A stretch of 64,000 nt of DNA, taken from the NCBI RefSeq assembly GCF_034366625.1, contig NZ_JAXMIH010000006.1, positions 248,001 through 312,000 on the forward strand. Direction: 5' to 3'. The stretch comes from Prosthecobacter sp. Lineage in GTDB: Bacteria; Verrucomicrobiota; Verrucomicrobiia; Verrucomicrobiales; Verrucomicrobiaceae. The position numbers and the translations under genes were made by a program. How positions within the stretch are numbered: the first letter of the stretch is position 1; each line of letters begins with the position of its first letter. The notes beneath the pieces were generated by a model. That model was not told the DNA's origin and searched no databases. It saw only the letters and a program-made list of their open reading frames with translations. Shown in pieces: positions 7,841 to 14,451 of the stretch.

Positions 7841-7912
7841 CTTGACCACGTCTTGACGGCGCAGCCCGCTTGACTGGCGGCAGCCTTGACCCACCTCGAC
7901 TCCGCCCTTGAC
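7841..7912 (+). repeat. Cluster of five CTTGAC hexamers
   Basis: CTTGAC occurs at 7841, 7852, 7869, 7885 and 7907, all in the same direction, in the 235-bp gap between ahcY and the sigma factor gene. Spacings are 11, 17, 16 and 22 nt. They could be overlapping -35 elements or repeated half-sites for a regulator of the sigma gene; a TTG in one of them could also be misread as a start codon. Confidence 0.45.
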
Positions 7913-7927
7913 CTTCCCACCTCTTTC

Positions 7928-8674
7928 ATGACTCAATCCGGCATGAACGACTCCATCGCTCCCGGCGCTCGCGAGTTTCACACCACGCGCTGGAGCCTGG
8001 TGCTGGCGGCGCAGCATGGGAAAGACGGCACGCAGGCGCGCAAGGCGATGTCGGCGCTGTGCCGGGACTACTGGTATCCACTTTACGCCTTTGTGCGGCG
8101 GCGCGGGCATGCGCCGCATGATGCGCAGGATCTGACACAGGCATTTTTCACCGATCTGCTGGAGCGCAATCCCACCATGGCCGATCCGTCGCGAGGAAAG
8201 TTCCGCTCGTACCTGCTCGGGGCGCTGAAGCACTTTCTAGCGAACGACTGGCATCGTGCGAACGCACAAAAGCGTGGCGGCGGGCAGCAGATGGTCGAGT
8301 GGGACGCGCTGGATGCGGAATCACGCTATGCTTTGGAACCTGCGGAGCAAACCGACGCCGATGCGCTTTATGACAAGCGCTGGGCCATGGAGCTGCTGGC
8401 GCGGGCGATGAGCCGGCTGCGCGCTGAGTTTCTGGCAAAGAAGGACGAAAGCACGTTCGATGCGCTCAAGGGCACGCTAAGCGGCGCGGAATCATCGCGC
8501 GAGGAACTCGCCAAAAAACTCGGCATGAGCGAGGGCGCACTCAAAGTGGCCGTGCACCGCCTGCGGCAACGCTACCGCGAGGTGCTGCGTGCCGAGATCG
8601 CCGAGACGGTCGATTCGCCCGCCGATGTCGAAGACGAGATGCGGCATCTGGTGGCGGTGCTGCGTGCTGGCTGA
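7928..8674 (+). CDS. ECF-type RNA polymerase sigma factor (STPK-associated)
   Basis: 248 residues from ATG 7928; ATG 7943 (MNDSIAPGAREFHTTRWSLV) is an equally good start, and a TTG at 7886 is unlikely because it lies in the CTTGAC cluster. The sigma-2 region (residues ~15-100) includes YWYPLYAFVRRRG and AQDLTQAFFTDLL; region 4 near the end has SREELAKKLGMSEGALKVAV HTH helices. This is the variant ECF type of Planctomycetes and Verrucomicrobiota that sits next to a Ser/Thr kinase instead of an anti-sigma factor. The kinase gene follows 49 nt downstream. It probably directs transcription of its own cluster through the TGTAAC-N16-KTCAG sites. Confidence 0.85.
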   Translation: MTQSGMNDSIAPGAREFHTTRWSLVLAAQHGKDGTQARKAMSALCRDYWYPLYAFVRRRGHAPHDAQDLTQAFFTDLLERNPTMADPSRGKFRSYLLGALKHFLANDWHRANAQKRGGGQQMVEWDALDAESRYALEPAEQTDADALYDKRWAMELLARAMSRLRAEFLAKKDESTFDALKGTLSGAESSREELAKKLGMSEGALKVAVHRLRQRYREVLRAEIAETVDSPADVEDEMRHLVAVLRAG

Positions 8675-8681
8675 TTTTTTC

Positions 8682-8709
8682 TGTAACCAGCCCTCAATTT
8701 TCTTTCAGG
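8682..8709 (+). promoter_or_regulatory. Candidate ECF promoter before the STPK gene
   Basis: TGTAAC (8682-8687), 16 nt, TTCAGG (8704-8709), preceded by a T-run. The 16-nt spacing fits ECF promoters. The same arrangement recurs at 14155 and 11911 in this cluster. If it is a promoter, the transcript would begin about 10 nt before ATG 8724, or about 20 nt before ATG 8736, which favours the latter start. Confidence 0.45.
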
Positions 8710-8723
8710 AAGGAGTGCCCACG

Positions 8724-11700
8724 ATGAATCCCGACATGAACACCCCTGCCACCTGCCCCCAATGCAGCTCCACACTGCCCGCTGATGCCCCGGAGGGCCT
8801 CTGCCCTGCCTGCTTGATGCGTGGTGGCCTCGACACCGATGCGACGATCAAGATGACGCCTTCGCAAAAGCCGTCAGCCGCCGAGCCGATGCCCACACCG
8901 TTGCCGGAGGAGTTGGCGCCGTTGTTTCCGCAGCTCGAAATCCTCGAACTGCTTGGTCGCGGCGGCATGGGCACGGTTTACAAGGCACGGCAGATGAAAC
9001 TGAACCGTTTCGTGGCGCTGAAGATCATCTCCGCCGAGGCGGGGGCTGATCCGCACTTCGCGGAGCGCTTTCAACGCGAGGCGCAGGCGCTCGCGAAGCT
9101 GAACCATCCGCACATCGTCAGCGTGTTCGACTTCGGCGAGACAGGCGGCCTGTTTTACTTCCTCATGGAGTATGTGGATGGCGCGAACCTCCGCACGCTC
9201 ATCCGCAGCGGCGAAATGAAGCCAGAGGCCGCGCTCGCGCTCATCCCCGCGTTTTGCGACGCGCTGCAATACGCACATGACGAGGGCGTGGTGCATCGCG
9301 ACATCAAGCCGGAGAACGTGCTCGTGGACAAGAAGGGCCGCGTCAAAATCGCCGACTTCGGTTTGGCAAAACTGCTCGGCCAGGACGCCAACGATCACAC
9401 GCTGACACGCACCGGCATGTATCTCGGCACGCCGCGCTACATGGCCCCGGAGCAGGTGGACAGGCCGGACAGCGTCGATCATCGCGCGGACATCTACAGC
9501 CTCGGTGTCGTGTTTTACGAGATGCTCACCGGCGAGATTCCAATGGGCCGCTTCGCCCCGCCCTCGCAGAAGGTACAGGTGGACGTGCGCTTCGACGAGA
9601 TCGTGCTCCACGCGCTGGAACGCGATGTCGCGCTGCGCTACCAGCACGCGAGCGAGATCAAGACGGATGTGGAGGGCGTGACGAGCACACCGAGACCACC
9701 TGCTGCGGCAGTTTCGTCCGCATCGCCTGCCATGGTTGCTCCCGCTCGTGTGGACGAGGCAGAACCGCCCGCCGCCATGCCGCTGCCAAGCTTCTTCTGG
9801 CTGCGTGCCTTTGCCCTGCTCATGCTCGGCTGGCTGGTCGTCGGCGCGCTGTGGAATTTCTGCACGCCGGGCTGCCTGCTCGGCGCGCTAGTGATGGGCA
9901 TCATCGTGATCGAGCTGGCGCTCCGTCATGCCAGGCAAAAACCCGTCTGGGCGCAGACCTGGCGCGACGCCTCGGCGTGGGGTCGGGTCTATTTCGCGGG
10001 CAGCTTCATCGTGCTCGCCGTGCTGCCGTTCATGCTGACAATCAGCGCGATGGATGTGAAGTGGGAAACATCCTCCCTGCGCTGGAATCTCATGGCGCAG
10101 TCGAAAGAGGCGTTTGAAACGGCGCACAAGGGCAAGGAATACCAGCTCATCCGCGGACTCGATGCCTTCAAGGATGAGGTGCCCGCGACCGAACTCGTTC
10201 CAAGCGCCGTCACCTGGTTTGGCGGCTGGCAGATCTGGGGCGACAACGGGCCGCACCACAATCTTTTCGGCTGGCTCTCGATCATCGCCTCATTCTGCTC
10301 CGTCACGCTCATCCTGACCTTCATGATCCAGCAGGTACTGGGCGCGGAGAAGTTTTCCGTGTGGCGCATCGGCACCAGCGGCTGGCGGCCCGCGCTGGCG
10401 CTCACCTGCACCATGCTCGCCAGCGTGGTGTGCGCGTATGCCGCGCTGAACTTCTGCTACATCACCTCGAGCACCGGCGGCAAAGGCAAGTTCACCGCGA
10501 CACCCGTCATGGTGGCGGCCACACCGCGCCAGGTGGAAATGGCGCTGCACAAATGGGCGGCGGAAAACGGCTACGCGCGTGGCGACGACAACCGCTGGAG
10601 CGTGGACACCGTGCCAAAAGGCCAGCGCGTCGCCGAAGTCGCGCTGTTCAATGCCTGGAAGGCCTCGCCCTTCGACCGCTGGCAGATGACTTGGTCCGGC
10701 CTGCGCCAGATCACACCGCATGTCACCGTGCAGACTGTGGGCACGGACAAACCGCTGCAAACCATGGCCACCTATTCTGGCAGCATGATGCAGTTCGATG
10801 CGCAGGAAACAGCGCTGTTCGAGGGCGTGATGAAGAGCCTGGCGGAAGCGATTTCCAACGCTACGGCAATGGACGTGAAGAAGCCGCTCGAAGAGCAGAT
10901 CGTCCGCAAACCTGCCGGGACTCCCACAGCAAGCAATGTGTCGCCGTGGCTGCTGTTCTTCGGCGTGGTGGGCCTCGCGGTGTTGTGGAGCGTGCTCAGG
11001 CATGGACGCCAGGGAAAAGCAGCCGGTGCGGCACTGTCTTCCGAGCCGCGACTCAGCCGCTGCGCCTTGTGGGGCGCGATATTGGCACCGTTTGGCTTGC
11101 TGCTGCTTCCCGCATTTTTCACGACGCGCACCGTGTCCAGTTCGGACGCAAATGGCATGTCCCAGCAGCCGCAGATGACGTTCATGATCCTCTTGGGCGT
11201 GCTGTTCGTCATCAGTCTGGCAGCGCCCATCGGCACGACGATTCTCGGCGCGGTGTCGCTCGGCCACATCAAGCGCTCCGGCGGCAAGCTCTACGGCCTG
11301 CCGCTCGCCTTCGCGGATGTGGTGCTCTTTCCCATGCTGCTGCTGCACGGCGGGATGGCAGTGCTCCTCGGCCTGCTCATCGTCTCGATCGTGAAAATCG
11401 CGGGCGTGAATGCCGGGATTGGACTGCTTGAATTGGGCCTGCTGGCGATGCTGCCGCTGATCGCAGATTTTTTCATCGTGCGGGCGCTGTGGCGGAAGGT
11501 GGCGGGCAAGCCTGCATCAAATGGCGGTGACATCGGCTCCAAGCTGAATCTGGCCGCCGTCGGTTTGCTGCTCGCCGGCATCGTGAACGCGCTCGCGGGA
11601 CTGGCTTGGATTGGCCTGAACGTCAACACGCTGGTGGCAGCGGCCAAGCAAGGCGCGCCAATGGCGGAGCCGGTGGTGATGCTGCTGCTGAGCCTGGGCA

Positions 11701-11915
11701 GCATCGCGGTAGTGTATTACACCATTGGCAGCGCGTTGTTCCTGATGCATCGCAAGGACGACGGCGACATCACCTTCCCGCTGATCATGGCCGCCCTCGT
11801 GCCACCGGGCTGCATCTTCGGCCTGCCTGCGGCCATTTACGCGTTGGTGCTGCTCAGCAAGCCGGAGGCGAAGGCGTTGTTTCCGCAGGCAAAGCCGGAG
11901 AGTGACACTTTGTAA
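8724..11915 (+). CDS. Zinc-ribbon serine/threonine protein kinase with C-terminal membrane domain
   Basis: 1063 residues from ATG 8724, which has AGGAAGGAG 9 nt upstream; ATG 8736 (MNTPATCPQC) is the alternative and matches the start of a paralogous remnant at 14211. An N-terminal CPQC...CPAC zinc ribbon (residues ~10-32) precedes a Hanks kinase domain (~75-330): glycine loop GRGGMGTVYKARQ, VALK lysine, HRDIKPENVLVD, DFGLAK and APEQ are all present, so it should be active. The rest carries about ten hydrophobic segments in two blocks around a soluble ~200-residue region (TPRQVEMALHKWAAENG). Likely a membrane sensor kinase acting with the adjacent ECF sigma factor. Confidence 0.9.
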   Translation: MNPDMNTPATCPQCSSTLPADAPEGLCPACLMRGGLDTDATIKMTPSQKPSAAEPMPTPLPEELAPLFPQLEILELLGRGGMGTVYKARQMKLNRFVALKIISAEAGADPHFAERFQREAQALAKLNHPHIVSVFDFGETGGLFYFLMEYVDGANLRTLIRSGEMKPEAALALIPAFCDALQYAHDEGVVHRDIKPENVLVDKKGRVKIADFGLAKLLGQDANDHTLTRTGMYLGTPRYMAPEQVDRPDSVDHRADIYSLGVVFYEMLTGEIPMGRFAPPSQKVQVDVRFDEIVLHALERDVALRYQHASEIKTDVEGVTSTPRPPAAAVSSASPAMVAPARVDEAEPPAAMPLPSFFWLRAFALLMLGWLVVGALWNFCTPGCLLGALVMGIIVIELALRHARQKPVWAQTWRDASAWGRVYFAGSFIVLAVLPFMLTISAMDVKWETSSLRWNLMAQSKEAFETAHKGKEYQLIRGLDAFKDEVPATELVPSAVTWFGGWQIWGDNGPHHNLFGWLSIIASFCSVTLILTFMIQQVLGAEKFSVWRIGTSGWRPALALTCTMLASVVCAYAALNFCYITSSTGGKGKFTATPVMVAATPRQVEMALHKWAAENGYARGDDNRWSVDTVPKGQRVAEVALFNAWKASPFDRWQMTWSGLRQITPHVTVQTVGTDKPLQTMATYSGSMMQFDAQETALFEGVMKSLAEAISNATAMDVKKPLEEQIVRKPAGTPTASNVSPWLLFFGVVGLAVLWSVLRHGRQGKAAGAALSSEPRLSRCALWGAILAPFGLLLLPAFFTTRTVSSSDANGMSQQPQMTFMILLGVLFVISLAAPIGTTILGAVSLGHIKRSGGKLYGLPLAFADVVLFPMLLLHGGMAVLLGLLIVSIVKIAGVNAGIGLLELGLLAMLPLIADFFIVRALWRKVAGKPASNGGDIGSKLNLAAVGLLLAGIVNALAGLAWIGLNVNTLVAAAKQGAPMAEPVVMLLLSLGSIAVVYYTIGSALFLMHRKDDGDITFPLIMAALVPPGCIFGLPAAIYALVLLSKPEAKALFPQAKPESDTL

Positions 11916-11938
11916 CCTGCCGTTCCGCATCCGTCAGT
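11911..11938 (+). promoter_or_regulatory. Candidate ECF promoter before the 11968 gene
   Basis: TGTAAC (11911-11916), 16 nt, GTCAGT (11933-11938), 29 nt before ATG 11968. It overlaps the stop codon of the kinase gene. It is not in a paralogous sequence context, so it is the most independent of the three copies. Confidence 0.4.
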
Positions 11939-11967
11939 AAGCCCGTGAACAAGCCATCCATCATCTC

Positions 11968-12435
11968 ATGAGCACACCCGATCCCACTCCTGCCTCCAAC
12001 ATTCCGTTCCAGCCGAAACGCTACCCCAAGTGGATGCCCGTCGCCGTGGTCGCCGCTTTCCTCATCGGCGTTTTTGCCATCAAGATGATCCTCCCGCCGC
12101 AGTGGCATGCACGGCTCGAACTGAAGAACACAGGCACAAAAGCCGTGACCATCGTCTTCAAGGAGCAAAGCACTGTCACGAAGCCCGGCGAGATCTGGAA
12201 GGGCGACTTCCGCGCCAGCGACACCATCAGCATCCATGCTGGCGAGAGCATTCACGCGCCATCGCACACCCTCACGATGCCCGCAAAGAATCCCAAGCCG
12301 TGGACACCGAGCCACTCGATCGTCCAGCACTGGACCGCCGACGTGAATGCCGACGATCCGCAGAACATCCGCATCGAGAACCGCCGCTACACCGAGGTGA
12401 CGATGCCGCCCTCACCCTGGGAGCCGTGGCCATGA
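11968..12435 (+). CDS. Membrane-anchored protein of unknown function
   Basis: 155 residues. A polar N-terminus (MSTPDPTPASNIPFQPKRYP) leads into one transmembrane helix (residues ~23-42, WMPVAVVAAFLIGVFAIKMI), then a ~110-residue outside domain rich in beta-strand pattern (WHARLELKNTGTKAVTIVF, GEIWKGDFRASDTISIHAGE). I do not recognise the family. Its stop overlaps the next gene (ATGATGA), and it follows the STPK with its own candidate ECF promoter, so it is probably part of that signalling cluster. Confidence 0.65.
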   Translation: MSTPDPTPASNIPFQPKRYPKWMPVAVVAAFLIGVFAIKMILPPQWHARLELKNTGTKAVTIVFKEQSTVTKPGEIWKGDFRASDTISIHAGESIHAPSHTLTMPAKNPKPWTPSHSIVQHWTADVNADDPQNIRIENRRYTEVTMPPSPWEPWP

Positions 12436-12839
12436 TGAATGGGCTCCACCGACTCTGGCAATGGCTCAAGCAAGGCGAGCCAGGAACCATCAGCTCGTTT
12501 GGGCTGCTCATCCTTGGCATCGCTCTCGGAGCCGTGGCCATGATCGCGATGCTCGGCATCGCGCTGACGGCTAGAGCGTCGTCGAATGTGTTGCCTATGA
12601 TCGCGTTCATCATCCTCGGCAGCCCGCTGATCTGGGGCTTCATCGTTGGAGCCATTCAGCCGCGTCAGGCGTTGCTGTGGAGCACCAGCATTTCGTTGCC
12701 CATGCTGGTCTGGGGATTGTTCTGCCTGCTGTTCGTTTTGTTTGAAGGCCCCGGCTTGCTGATCTGGTTGCTGGCGGCCTTCTTCATGGCGGCGCTTGCG
12801 GTCTTGGGCACCTTGTTCGCACGCCGCCTTCGTCGATGA
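12432..12839 (+). CDS. Four-helix membrane protein, unknown
   Basis: 135 residues, starting MMNGLHRLWQWLKQG at an ATG overlapping the upstream stop. Hydrophobic helices lie at ~20-43, ~51-69, ~77-97 and ~100-124, with a C-terminal RRLRR. No family recognised. Coupling to the previous gene suggests the two proteins form a small membrane complex. It could equally be an independent housekeeping membrane protein. Confidence 0.65.
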   Translation: MMNGLHRLWQWLKQGEPGTISSFGLLILGIALGAVAMIAMLGIALTARASSNVLPMIAFIILGSPLIWGFIVGAIQPRQALLWSTSISLPMLVWGLFCLLFVLFEGPGLLIWLLAAFFMAALAVLGTLFARRLRR

Positions 12840-12845
12840 CATCTC

Positions 12846-13667
12846 ATGAATGCACACCCCATGCCGCACTATCCGCAGTTCCCGCGCACCGCGATGTATC
12901 ATCCCGACTGGATCACCGCCGGTGTCAGCGGCGGCGCGAATCCGCTGTGGCTCACGGAATGGCTGACGGAGGTGATGGAGTTGCGTCCCGGCATGCGCGT
13001 GCTCGATCTCGGCTGCGGTCGCGCCATGTCCTCGGTCTTTCTGCATCGCGAGTTCGGCGTTCAAGTCTGGGCCGCCGACCTGTGGTTCGATGTCTCGGAA
13101 AATCATGAGCGTATTCGTGACGCAGGCTGCGCGGACGGCGTGTTCCCGCTGCATGCGGACGCACGGGCGCTGCCCTTCGCGCGTGATTTTTTCGACGCCA
13201 TCATCAGCATCGACTCCTTCCCTTACTATGGCACGGATGAGATGTATCTGCCGTATCTCGCGCGCTTGGTGAAGCCCGGCGGTGTCATCGCCATCGCCAT
13301 CGCCGGAGCCGCCGTGGTGCAGGAATGGGATGCCGATGTGCCCGCGCATCTGCGTGACTGGTGGACGCCTGATCTCAGTTGCCTGCATTCGGCGGGATGG
13401 TGGAGAAAGCATTGGGAAAAGAGCGGCATTCTCACAGTGGAGCACTCCGACACGATGCCCAAAGGCTGGAAACTCTGGCGCGACTGGCTGCACGTCATCG
13501 CACCCGACAACACGAGCGAAATCGCCGCACTGGAGGCGGATCGCGGCAGCTACCTCGGCTATGTCCGTATCGTTGGACGACGCAGGGCGGATGTGGCGTT
13601 GCCTGATCCCGTGCTTTCCATTCCCCCGGCTTATGTGAAACAACCGCTACTTCAAGATCATGCCTGA
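12846..13667 (+). CDS. Class I SAM-dependent methyltransferase
   Basis: 273 residues. Motif I VLDLGCGRAMSSVFLHREFG (residues ~55-74) binds SAM, followed by an acidic end of strand 2 (VWAADLW), an aromatic post-motif region (IDSFPYYGTDEMYLPYLARL) and the usual late KPGGVIAIAIAG strand. The Rossmann-fold methyltransferase call is secure; the substrate is unknown. Trp-rich segments (DWWTPD, HSAGWWRKHW) resemble small-molecule methyltransferases. It begins 6 nt after the membrane gene and its stop overlaps the next gene by 8 nt. Confidence 0.85.
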   Translation: MNAHPMPHYPQFPRTAMYHPDWITAGVSGGANPLWLTEWLTEVMELRPGMRVLDLGCGRAMSSVFLHREFGVQVWAADLWFDVSENHERIRDAGCADGVFPLHADARALPFARDFFDAIISIDSFPYYGTDEMYLPYLARLVKPGGVIAIAIAGAAVVQEWDADVPAHLRDWWTPDLSCLHSAGWWRKHWEKSGILTVEHSDTMPKGWKLWRDWLHVIAPDNTSEIAALEADRGSYLGYVRIVGRRRADVALPDPVLSIPPAYVKQPLLQDHA

Positions 13668-14124
13668 ACGTCGCGTCATCGTCTATGGCAACGCTGGCTC
13701 CGGCAAGACTACCATGGCGCGCAGCCTCGCTCTGCCGGTGCTGAGTCTTGATCACATCACCTGGGCCGCTTCCGGCGTCCGTTTGCCGATGGCCGAGAGT
13801 TTGGCGGCTTTAGAGGCATTCATGAGCGAACACTCGGAATGGGTGATCGAAGGCTGCTATGGCGACTTGATCGAACACGCGGCCAAACACGGCACCGAGC
13901 TGCGTTTTCTCAATCCAGGCGTCGAAACCTGCATCGCCAACGCCCGCAACCGGCCCTGGGAGCCGAGCTACTGTGAATCCGCCGAGGAACAGCAACGATT
14001 GCTGGACCCACTGATCGAGTTCATCCGCCTCTACGAGACCCGCGATGATGAATACGGCCTGGCACGACATCGCGCGATCTTCGCAGTTCACAACGGACCC
14101 AAACGTGAATACACCCGCCAGTAG
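13660..14124 (+). CDS. Small P-loop kinase/ATPase (adenylate-kinase or topology-modulation-like)
   Basis: 154 residues, short even for this family. A Walker A GNAGSGKTTMA follows the first strand (RRVIVYG) and an acidic switch LSLDHITWAA comes next. WVIEGCYGDLIEHAA fits the 'W-(I/V)-x-D-G-x' motif of FlaR/topology-modulation-type nucleotide kinases, although the Asp is replaced by Glu. Cytoplasmic; substrate unknown. It overlaps the methyltransferase gene by 8 nt. Confidence 0.7.
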   Translation: MPERRVIVYGNAGSGKTTMARSLALPVLSLDHITWAASGVRLPMAESLAALEAFMSEHSEWVIEGCYGDLIEHAAKHGTELRFLNPGVETCIANARNRPWEPSYCESAEEQQRLLDPLIEFIRLYETRDDEYGLARHRAIFAVHNGPKREYTRQ

Positions 14125-14154
14125 CAGCAAGGCATGCCTCCCTGAAACTTTTTC

Positions 14155-14182
14155 TGTAACCTGCCCGCTGCCCTCTTTCAGG
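14155..14182 (+). promoter_or_regulatory. Candidate ECF promoter before the STPK remnant
   Basis: TGTAAC (14155-14160), 16 nt, TTCAGG (14177-14182). The T-run upstream and the bases TTTTTCTGTAACC and TTTCAGGAA are identical to the site before the intact kinase. It lies 28 nt before ATG 14211 of the degraded paralogue. Confidence 0.4.
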
Positions 14183-14210
14183 AACTCATGGAAACCTATC
14201 CATCTCATCC

Positions 14211-14422
14211 ATGAACACTCCAAACCCATGCCCGAAATGCGGCGCCGCACTCCCCGCCGACGCGCCTGAGTCTCTCTGCCCGGCCTGCCTCATGTCCGGC
14301 GCGCTGGCGTCGAACTTTTGCTCTTTGAAAAGCAACTGGCCGGTCACATCTGGCTGCTGCTCGCTGGACTCGTGACGTCGATCGTCGTGCTGAACGCGGG
14401 TCGTCAGCGCAAGTCTGCGTGA
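14211..14422 (+). pseudogene. Remnant of a second zinc-ribbon STPK with internal deletion
   Basis: From ATG 14211 the frame encodes the kinase-type zinc ribbon, with the cysteine pairs CPKC and CPAC. It matches the N-terminus of the intact kinase at 23 of 32 positions (MNTP, LPADAPE, LCPACLM shared). After about residue 32 the frame becomes meaningless. A different frame from 14309 reads ELLLFEKQLAGHIWLLLAGL and ends at TGA 14420-14422, a plausible C-terminal transmembrane helix. So the kinase centre has been deleted and both ends remain. This also explains the lack of an intact gene between 14124 and 14452. Confidence 0.7.
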
Positions 14423-14451
14423 AATCGCCGCCCATGACGTTATCACCTGAC

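Follow-up and report, generated by a model that had tools for sequence, protein, structure and literature searches.

We analysed a 64,000-nt stretch of the Prosthecobacter sp. assembly GCF_034366625.1 (contig NZ_JAXMIH010000006.1, forward strand, positions 248,001 to 312,000), here called the window, in which a two-block element, TGTAAC-N16-KTCAG, recurs in a cluster with genes for a sigma factor of the extracytoplasmic function (ECF) type and a zinc-ribbon Ser/Thr protein kinase. The reading we favour, with a probability of roughly 0.86, is that the ECF-type sigma factor encoded at 7943-8674 reads the three copies as promoters, and that their targets would be the adjacent kinase, a small membrane protein and what was once a second kinase. 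The features of the locus, with promoters, transcript starts (+1) and leader open reading frames (ORFs) as predicted, are as follows.

7943..8674, + strand: ECF-type sigma factor, 243 aa, start MNDSIAPG by alignment
8682..8711, + strand: predicted promoter 1 (kinase), -35 TGTAACC, -10 region CTTTCAGGAA, predicted +1 near 8717, matrix score 21.3
8715..11915, + strand: zinc-ribbon Ser/Thr protein kinase, directly 3' of the sigma gene, Pkinase E 6.8e-54
11911..11940, + strand: predicted promoter 2 (155-aa protein), overlapping the kinase stop codon, predicted +1 near 11946, matrix score 24.8
11945..11971, + strand: possible 8-codon leader ORF, GTG...TGA, its stop overlapping the next start (ATGA)
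11968..12435, + strand: 155-aa protein, N-terminal membrane anchor by eye, no Pfam match
14155..14184, + strand: predicted promoter 3 (5' of the kinase relic), predicted +1 near 14190, matrix score 19.3
14188..14214, + strand: possible 8-codon leader ORF, ATG...TGA, overlapping the ATG of the relic
14211..14423, + strand: second zinc-ribbon kinase, a relic with about 40 N-terminal and about 33 C-terminal residues left and the middle lost

The three sites and the sigma factor gene

The exactly spaced copies from which the original prediction started are borne out by a count: the pattern matches three times in the window (8682-8708, 11911-11937 and 14155-14181, all on the + strand) where chance would give a mean of 0.02, and none of 100 dinucleotide shuffles reached three. 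As had also been described, the copies at 8682 and 14155 share the flanks TTTTTCTGTAACC...CTTTCAGGAA, which are absent from the 11911 copy. The distance to the downstream genes, given earlier as 15 to 29 nt, was nearly right, the gap from the final base of the motif to the nominal ATG being 15, 30 and 29 nt for the 8682, 11911 and 14155 copies, respectively. Two of the three genes said to lie behind the sites are intact; the third is the kinase relic, which in a tblastn comparison with the 692-aa kinase of locus L087 matches residues 1-44 (E 6e-15) and 659-691 (E 5e-8). Promoter 3 drives nothing intact, its target being a dead gene. The whole 6.65-Mb genome, scanned as the original prediction had proposed, holds five matches, where the backwards control gives one; three are those of the cluster, upstream of genes, and the other two (L099 and L100) fall within predicted ORFs and look like chance occurrences.

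For the sigma gene, 7943 is the most likely start, since the beginning MNDSIAPG is common to the close relatives in the alignment. Its product matches Sigma70_r2 in Pfam; among the members of the alignment, 20 of 22 match Sigma70_r2, 8/22 match Sigma70_ECF and only 2/22 match Sigma70_r4_2. A PDB profile match to the ECF factor SigE covers both domains (profile positions 37-217, E 5.5e-4), and the 243-aa protein consists of the sigma2 and sigma4 domains and little else, which is the mark of the ECF class (group 4). No anti-sigma family was found by Pfam among the eight window proteins scanned, the gene 5' of the sigma gene lying outside the scan; two small proteins, of 155 and 135 aa, match no family and could act as anti-sigma factors. 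Just 5' of the sigma start, at 7842-7912, there are five TTGAC repeats at irregular spacing.

Conservation of the element in distant and close relatives

Distant relatives were represented by the best 80 of 217 sigma relatives in a species-level genome collection (43-58% identity), which by title come mostly from Verrucomicrobiota and Planctomycetota, Prosthecobacter and Brevifollis being among those named. An HRDxK kinase motif follows the sigma stop within 850 nt at 48 of the 80 loci; among the remaining 32 are contigs that stop short and loci where HRDxK lies further away. When 6-mers were counted over the 120 nt that follow the sigma stop, TGTAAC was the most enriched of all at the kinase-linked loci (16/48 vs 0.4 expected), and GTAAC was likewise the most enriched 5-mer (26/48 vs 1.7 expected, log10 p -24.5); of the 32 other loci 5 had GTAAC, with 1.2 expected. 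Locus L139, which has a run of GTAAC repeats, is counted among the 48 and excluded from the site lists and the covariation analysis. Because this k-mer test was given no motif and still ranked TGTAAC and GTAAC at the top, the half-site of the original prediction has been recovered independently beside kinases.

To describe the element further, 27 distant sites (L139 dropped) were aligned on GTAAC alone, with offsets counted from the G of TGTAAC. The columns above the 99.9% null are offsets 5-8, 17, 18, 20, 22-24, 26-28, 32-34, 36, 37, -1 and -19, and the second block reads roughly TT-n-C-n-T-[AC]-A-G-T-A-A, with a purine-rich stretch behind it. In 10 of 25 usable loci the kinase has its first in-frame ATG at offset 34-36; many of the ten share one branch, so that they do not count as ten independent cases. 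Taking that ATG as the transcript start would put TGTAAC at about -35 to -30 and the second block at -12 to -6, the geometry of a promoter; ECF promoters combine AAC in the -35 box with a -10 block at a set distance, and in sequence this arrangement is likewise present. A matrix built from the 27 sites, two of which (L146 and L156) belong to an R/A type, explained below, that is also found in the family and none of which is of the window's own type, was run over both strands of the window. It gave its three highest scores at G positions 8683 (21.3), 11912 (24.8) and 14156 (19.3); the next score was 10.7, and the maximum in 100 Markov-simulated windows was 17.0.

Since the cross-phylum matrix scores 11911 highest, this copy is the best of the three despite its unshared flanks. 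That bears on the idea that the copies are mere remnants of a local duplication of the kinase cassette, with no present function. Such a history would account for the flanks common to 8682 and 14155, for their position before paralogous zinc-ribbon N-termini and for the relic behind 14155, but it is hardly credible for a set in which the 11911 copy precedes an unrelated gene and fits the matrix best, and in which the element persists in relatives as distant as those of the 80 loci.

For closer relatives, 68 family genomes were searched with the sigma protein, and orthologs, defined by at least 70% identity, were found in 13, the genome of the window included. Most of the 13 retain a form of TTTTTCTGTAACC...CTTTCAGGAA in the sigma-kinase gap, and GTAAC stands there in 9. 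More copies in the relatives' clusters precede other zinc-ribbon kinases, and one in genome G002 precedes a homolog of the 155-aa gene. An extended pattern was run on all 68 genomes with up to three mismatches allowed. At two mismatches or fewer it was present in 12/13 genomes with a sigma ortholog vs 0/55 without (Fisher p 1.8e-12), a comparison in which presence is partly circular, because some of these loci supplied the pattern, and absence is not. All 20 such matches lie on the contig and strand of the sigma gene, at most about 23 kb from it. There were 15 matches at three mismatches, eleven genomes having only such matches, vs 7 in the backwards control. The claim of an ECF-type promoter of fixed spacing, tied to this sigma factor, is thus upheld by conservation across two phyla, by presence only alongside an ortholog and by the covariation described below.

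Within the family, conservation runs past the -10 block into [AGT]TG-AA triplets, and the leader length is nearly fixed. Both features would suit an operator or an RNA leader that serves another regulator, in which case the element would not be a promoter. We consider this very improbable, as the two blocks stand at promoter spacing from the start codon in relatives and the upstream block covaries with a residue of the sigma recognition helix. Two records titled Akkermansia muciniphila (L146 and L163) carry sigma genes or gaps that match those of family genomes (L080 and L072), and their labels look doubtful.

Covariation between the sigma factor and its putative site

The sigma proteins were also compared with the base that follows TGTAAC. 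The sigma4.2 helix contacts the -35 element. When the columns of the sigma alignment were compared with this base (A or C) in 31 sigmas under 72% identity (20 C, 10 A and 1 G), one residue stood out, with z 19.8 by label shuffling; the next, at 9.2, was its neighbour. The residue is Lys in 19/19 C-type sigmas and Arg in 10/10 A-type sigmas, one more C-type being cut at that column. It lies in the stretch SEGAL[K]VAVHRLR, the putative recognition helix, and its equivalent in the window is K201 (codon 8543-8545), which sits in the sigma4.2 helix SEGALKVAVHRLR.

An earlier set, kin included, was concordant at 57/57 A/C sites, made up of 27 of the C/K type and, for A/R, 17 behind the sigma gene and 13 ahead of it; 11 further sites had G or T after TGTAAC. 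Held-out loci were then scanned with a matrix that omits the base after TGTAAC. Three phylum searches, which drew on (nearly) the same 387 genomes, supplied 81 new loci, 35 with a site and 11 of these non-redundant; the 11 loci hold 16 sites, of which 12/12 with A or C were concordant and 4 had G. Near-duplicates were removed at 72% identity for the covariation set and at 90% for the held-out test and the tree, and L143, whose sigma is cut by a contig end, was dropped from the trees. In a tree of 58 sigmas computed without the helix columns, the base changes 5 times and the residue 5 times, and the two agree in 52/52 rows bearing both. Independent pairs on supported branches agree in 4/4 cases, and a switch is seen directly within sister pairs such as L136 (A/R) vs L137 (C/K) and L225 (A/R) vs L250 (C/K).

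Both types occur in the genome of the window: the K/C module described here (contig C6) and an R/A module on contig C8 (L007, TGTAACA), where sites precede both the sigma gene and the kinase gene. That genome holds 18 relatives of the sigma factor at E <= 0.001 (16 with E below 1e-28), the window sigma included in both counts, so that cross-talk is possible, and the three sites might be promoters read by one of the 17 other relatives or by the housekeeping sigma factor, the neighbouring sigma being merely linked. We judge this improbable, though the least so of the alternatives considered here. It is the helix residue of the linked sigma that predicts the base; 55/55 family genomes lacking an ortholog of at least 70% identity also lack the extended pattern at two mismatches or fewer; and the second module combines Arg with TGTAACA, a different code. 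Very probably the sites are read by the adjacent sigma factor, which would use them to switch on its partner kinases, and related bacteria keep this switch, with the sigma factor and the letters of the DNA changing together.

Several observations weigh against this interpretation and have to be set beside it. Among the distant kinase-linked loci, 22/48 lack GTAAC within 120 nt of the sigma stop, and 4/13 close orthologs do not carry the site immediately after the sigma gene, the gap holding other sequence in L055, L056 and L062 and a degraded copy in L058. Only 2/18 sigma relatives in the window's own genome have a matrix site (score at least 11) behind them. The -10 block is not the CGT said to be typical of ECF promoters, CGTC occurring only at 11911. 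In a leave-one-out run of the matrix, 4/27 training sites scored under 6. The null used for the alignment columns treats the 27 sites as unrelated, and the label shuffling behind the z of 19.8 was done without regard to kinship. The sign test on the independent pairs gives p 0.125, six pairs being needed for significance. G or T replaces A or C after TGTAAC in 15/84 sites, and G can accompany Lys as well as Arg. The sites before K-type sigma genes, five in number, all carry G, which leaves the sites behind sigma genes as the sole basis of the Lys:C rule.

Targets, control and known systems

At a matrix score of at least 16, the 80 distant loci (training sites included) hold 29 sites after the sigma gene, 8 before it and 16 elsewhere on the sigma strand, with 1 on the opposite strand and 5 in the reversed sequence of both strands as controls. 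The "elsewhere" sites precede ORFs with zinc-ribbon or kinase N-termini in 11 of 16 cases, two of them confirmed by Pfam, and three of these 11 ORFs lie just behind the sigma gene, past the 150-nt limit. A site scoring at least 14 stands before the sigma gene in 12/80 distant loci. The positions of the matrix sites and the adjoining ORFs indicate a recognisable regulon made up mostly of kinases and sometimes of the sigma factor itself; as judged from sequence, its targets are mostly zinc-ribbon Ser/Thr kinases, the sigma gene in some relatives and one 155-aa protein in the window. For the window sigma itself, autoregulation was rejected, the matrix scan having found no promoter of its own upstream of the gene.

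A genome-wide regulon was rejected as well: in the 68 family genomes there is no match with two mismatches or fewer off the sigma contig. A loose two-mismatch pattern in the window's own genome gave 162 matches, forward and reverse, vs 176 in the control, which is background. The sigma factor does appear to have a target set of its own, as the original prediction had suggested, but the set is local and mostly made of kinases. Besides the window sigma and L007, 0/16 sigma relatives of the own genome have a matrix site of 11 or more. A kinase motif lies downstream of 8/18 relatives, and for 6/8 of these kinase-linked sigmas, where no matrix site was found, the promoter probably differs or lies elsewhere, as it would for the 22/48 distant loci without GTAAC.

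What the computation supports, at the level of sequence, is the conservation of the sites, their fixed spacing and promoter geometry, the linkage to the sigma gene, the covariation of base and residue, and the local confinement. On the favoured reading, TGTAACC would be the -35 element and the sigma4.2 helix would touch it around K201, the TTCAG(G/T)AA block would form the -10 region, and the transcript would start about 34 nt past the G of TGTAAC. The module would then be local and self-contained, an ECF sigma factor making its own kinases. The kinase encoded at 8715..11915 has a long hydrophobic C-terminal part (by eye); bound to the membrane, it could sense something, phosphorylate the sigma factor and thereby, we infer, activate it, which would close a positive loop. 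Control of the sigma factor by the kinase is plausible from gene order and precedent.

The pairing of ECF sigma factors with kinases is itself already known, and the window, where a Ser/Thr kinase gene adjoins the sigma gene, belongs with the kinase-linked ECF factors. The ECF43 factors work with a Hanks-type kinase, as in EcfP-PknT of Vibrio parahaemolyticus and EcfK-PknS of Xanthomonas citri, and carry, for part of the DAED motif, a Thr that becomes phosphorylated (PMC13147305, PMC8999054); the examples described govern polymyxin resistance or a type VI secretion system. In this group the Thr takes the place of the third residue of DAED, and the acidic residues are lost. The window resembles them in that an ECF sigma gene stands beside a Ser/Thr kinase gene with no recognised anti-sigma gene. 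It differs in that its sigma2.2 region, DAQDLTQ, retains both acidic residues and lacks the change of Glu to Thr, and in that its recognisable targets are mostly the kinases themselves. In the 80 relatives the position of the ECF43 phospho-Thr holds Q in 44, E in 26, K, A and R in 3 each and H in 1, and Thr in none, and both outer acids of the DAED-like motif are present in 75/80; membership in ECF43 was rejected on these grounds. A Thr at alignment position 64 is conserved in 71/80 relatives, all of the same sigma family.

The groups ECF59, ECF61, ECF62 and ECF217 are tabulated as controlled by phosphorylation, the named examples being planctomycete, and kinase-linked groups other than ECF43 are said to keep a DAED-like motif and may work differently (PMC8999054). 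By description, which is the level of this comparison, the window sigma is like these four groups in being kinase-linked, in belonging to the same bacterial superphylum and in having a DAED-like motif. The Ser that replaces a charge in ECF59 (PMC8103513) does not fit the DAQD of the window. Classical ECF promoters have AAC in the -35 and CGT in the -10 (PMC8103513). TGTAAC contains the AAC, and the spacing fits; the -10 block, T-[ACT]-A-G-T/G-A-A, is unlike theirs save at 11911 (CGTCAG). We found no target promoter for these sigmas in the titles and abstracts searched, and a motif may already have been predicted for some ECF group.

As far as the available accounts go, kinase-controlled ECF sigma factors have been worked out in a few proteobacterial cases, and those considered here are numerous in environmental phyla. 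Whether the Verrucomicrobiota and Planctomycetota hold widespread, insulated sigma-kinase modules of this kind seems to us evenly balanced. Such modules would have private promoters set by a code of one residue and one base in the -35 (Lys:C, Arg:A), their targets would mainly be their own zinc-ribbon kinases feeding back, differently coded modules would coexist in one genome, and some kinase mRNAs would begin at the start codon. A promoter with a residue-base pair offers a handle, predicting which genes each sigma would read, where transcripts start and which mutation would switch specificity. It also raises the question of why a sigma factor spends its regulon on making its own kinases.

A variant site with TTTGCTTCTGA recurs 3-7 kb upstream of the sigma stop in L168, L182, L198, L201 and L211. 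It closely precedes ATGGAC or a start near it, lies before another zinc-ribbon kinase set (the L211 ORF excepted) and is perhaps a further promoter subtype. A counterpart of promoter 2 stands before the homologous gene in L087, and among the collected loci a homolog of the 155-aa protein was found in one place, genome G002, at 62% identity.

The kinase behind promoter 1 has three in-frame candidate starts, GTG 8715, ATG 8724 and ATG 8736. The true start may be the ATG at 8736 or the GTG at 8715, because the first ATG (8724) is not conserved, being ACG in L054 and L057. The sequence AGGAAGGAG was considered as the ribosome site of the kinase and is weak, since in those two loci ACG stands for the ATG behind it and the next ATG is more distant. 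A start codon lies at offset 32-33 from the G of TGTAAC in 21/22 family sites examined. A conserved leader ORF common to all copies was rejected as a general feature: an 8- or 9-codon ORF whose TGA overlaps the next ATG occurs at 10/22 family sites, and one more overlaps at 26 codons. The loci with a start codon at offset 32-33 or a leader ORF are the window (11945-11971 and 14188-14214), L083, L084, L085, L087, L088, L090 and L109, and the overlap of these short ORFs with the next start suggests a coupled leader peptide.

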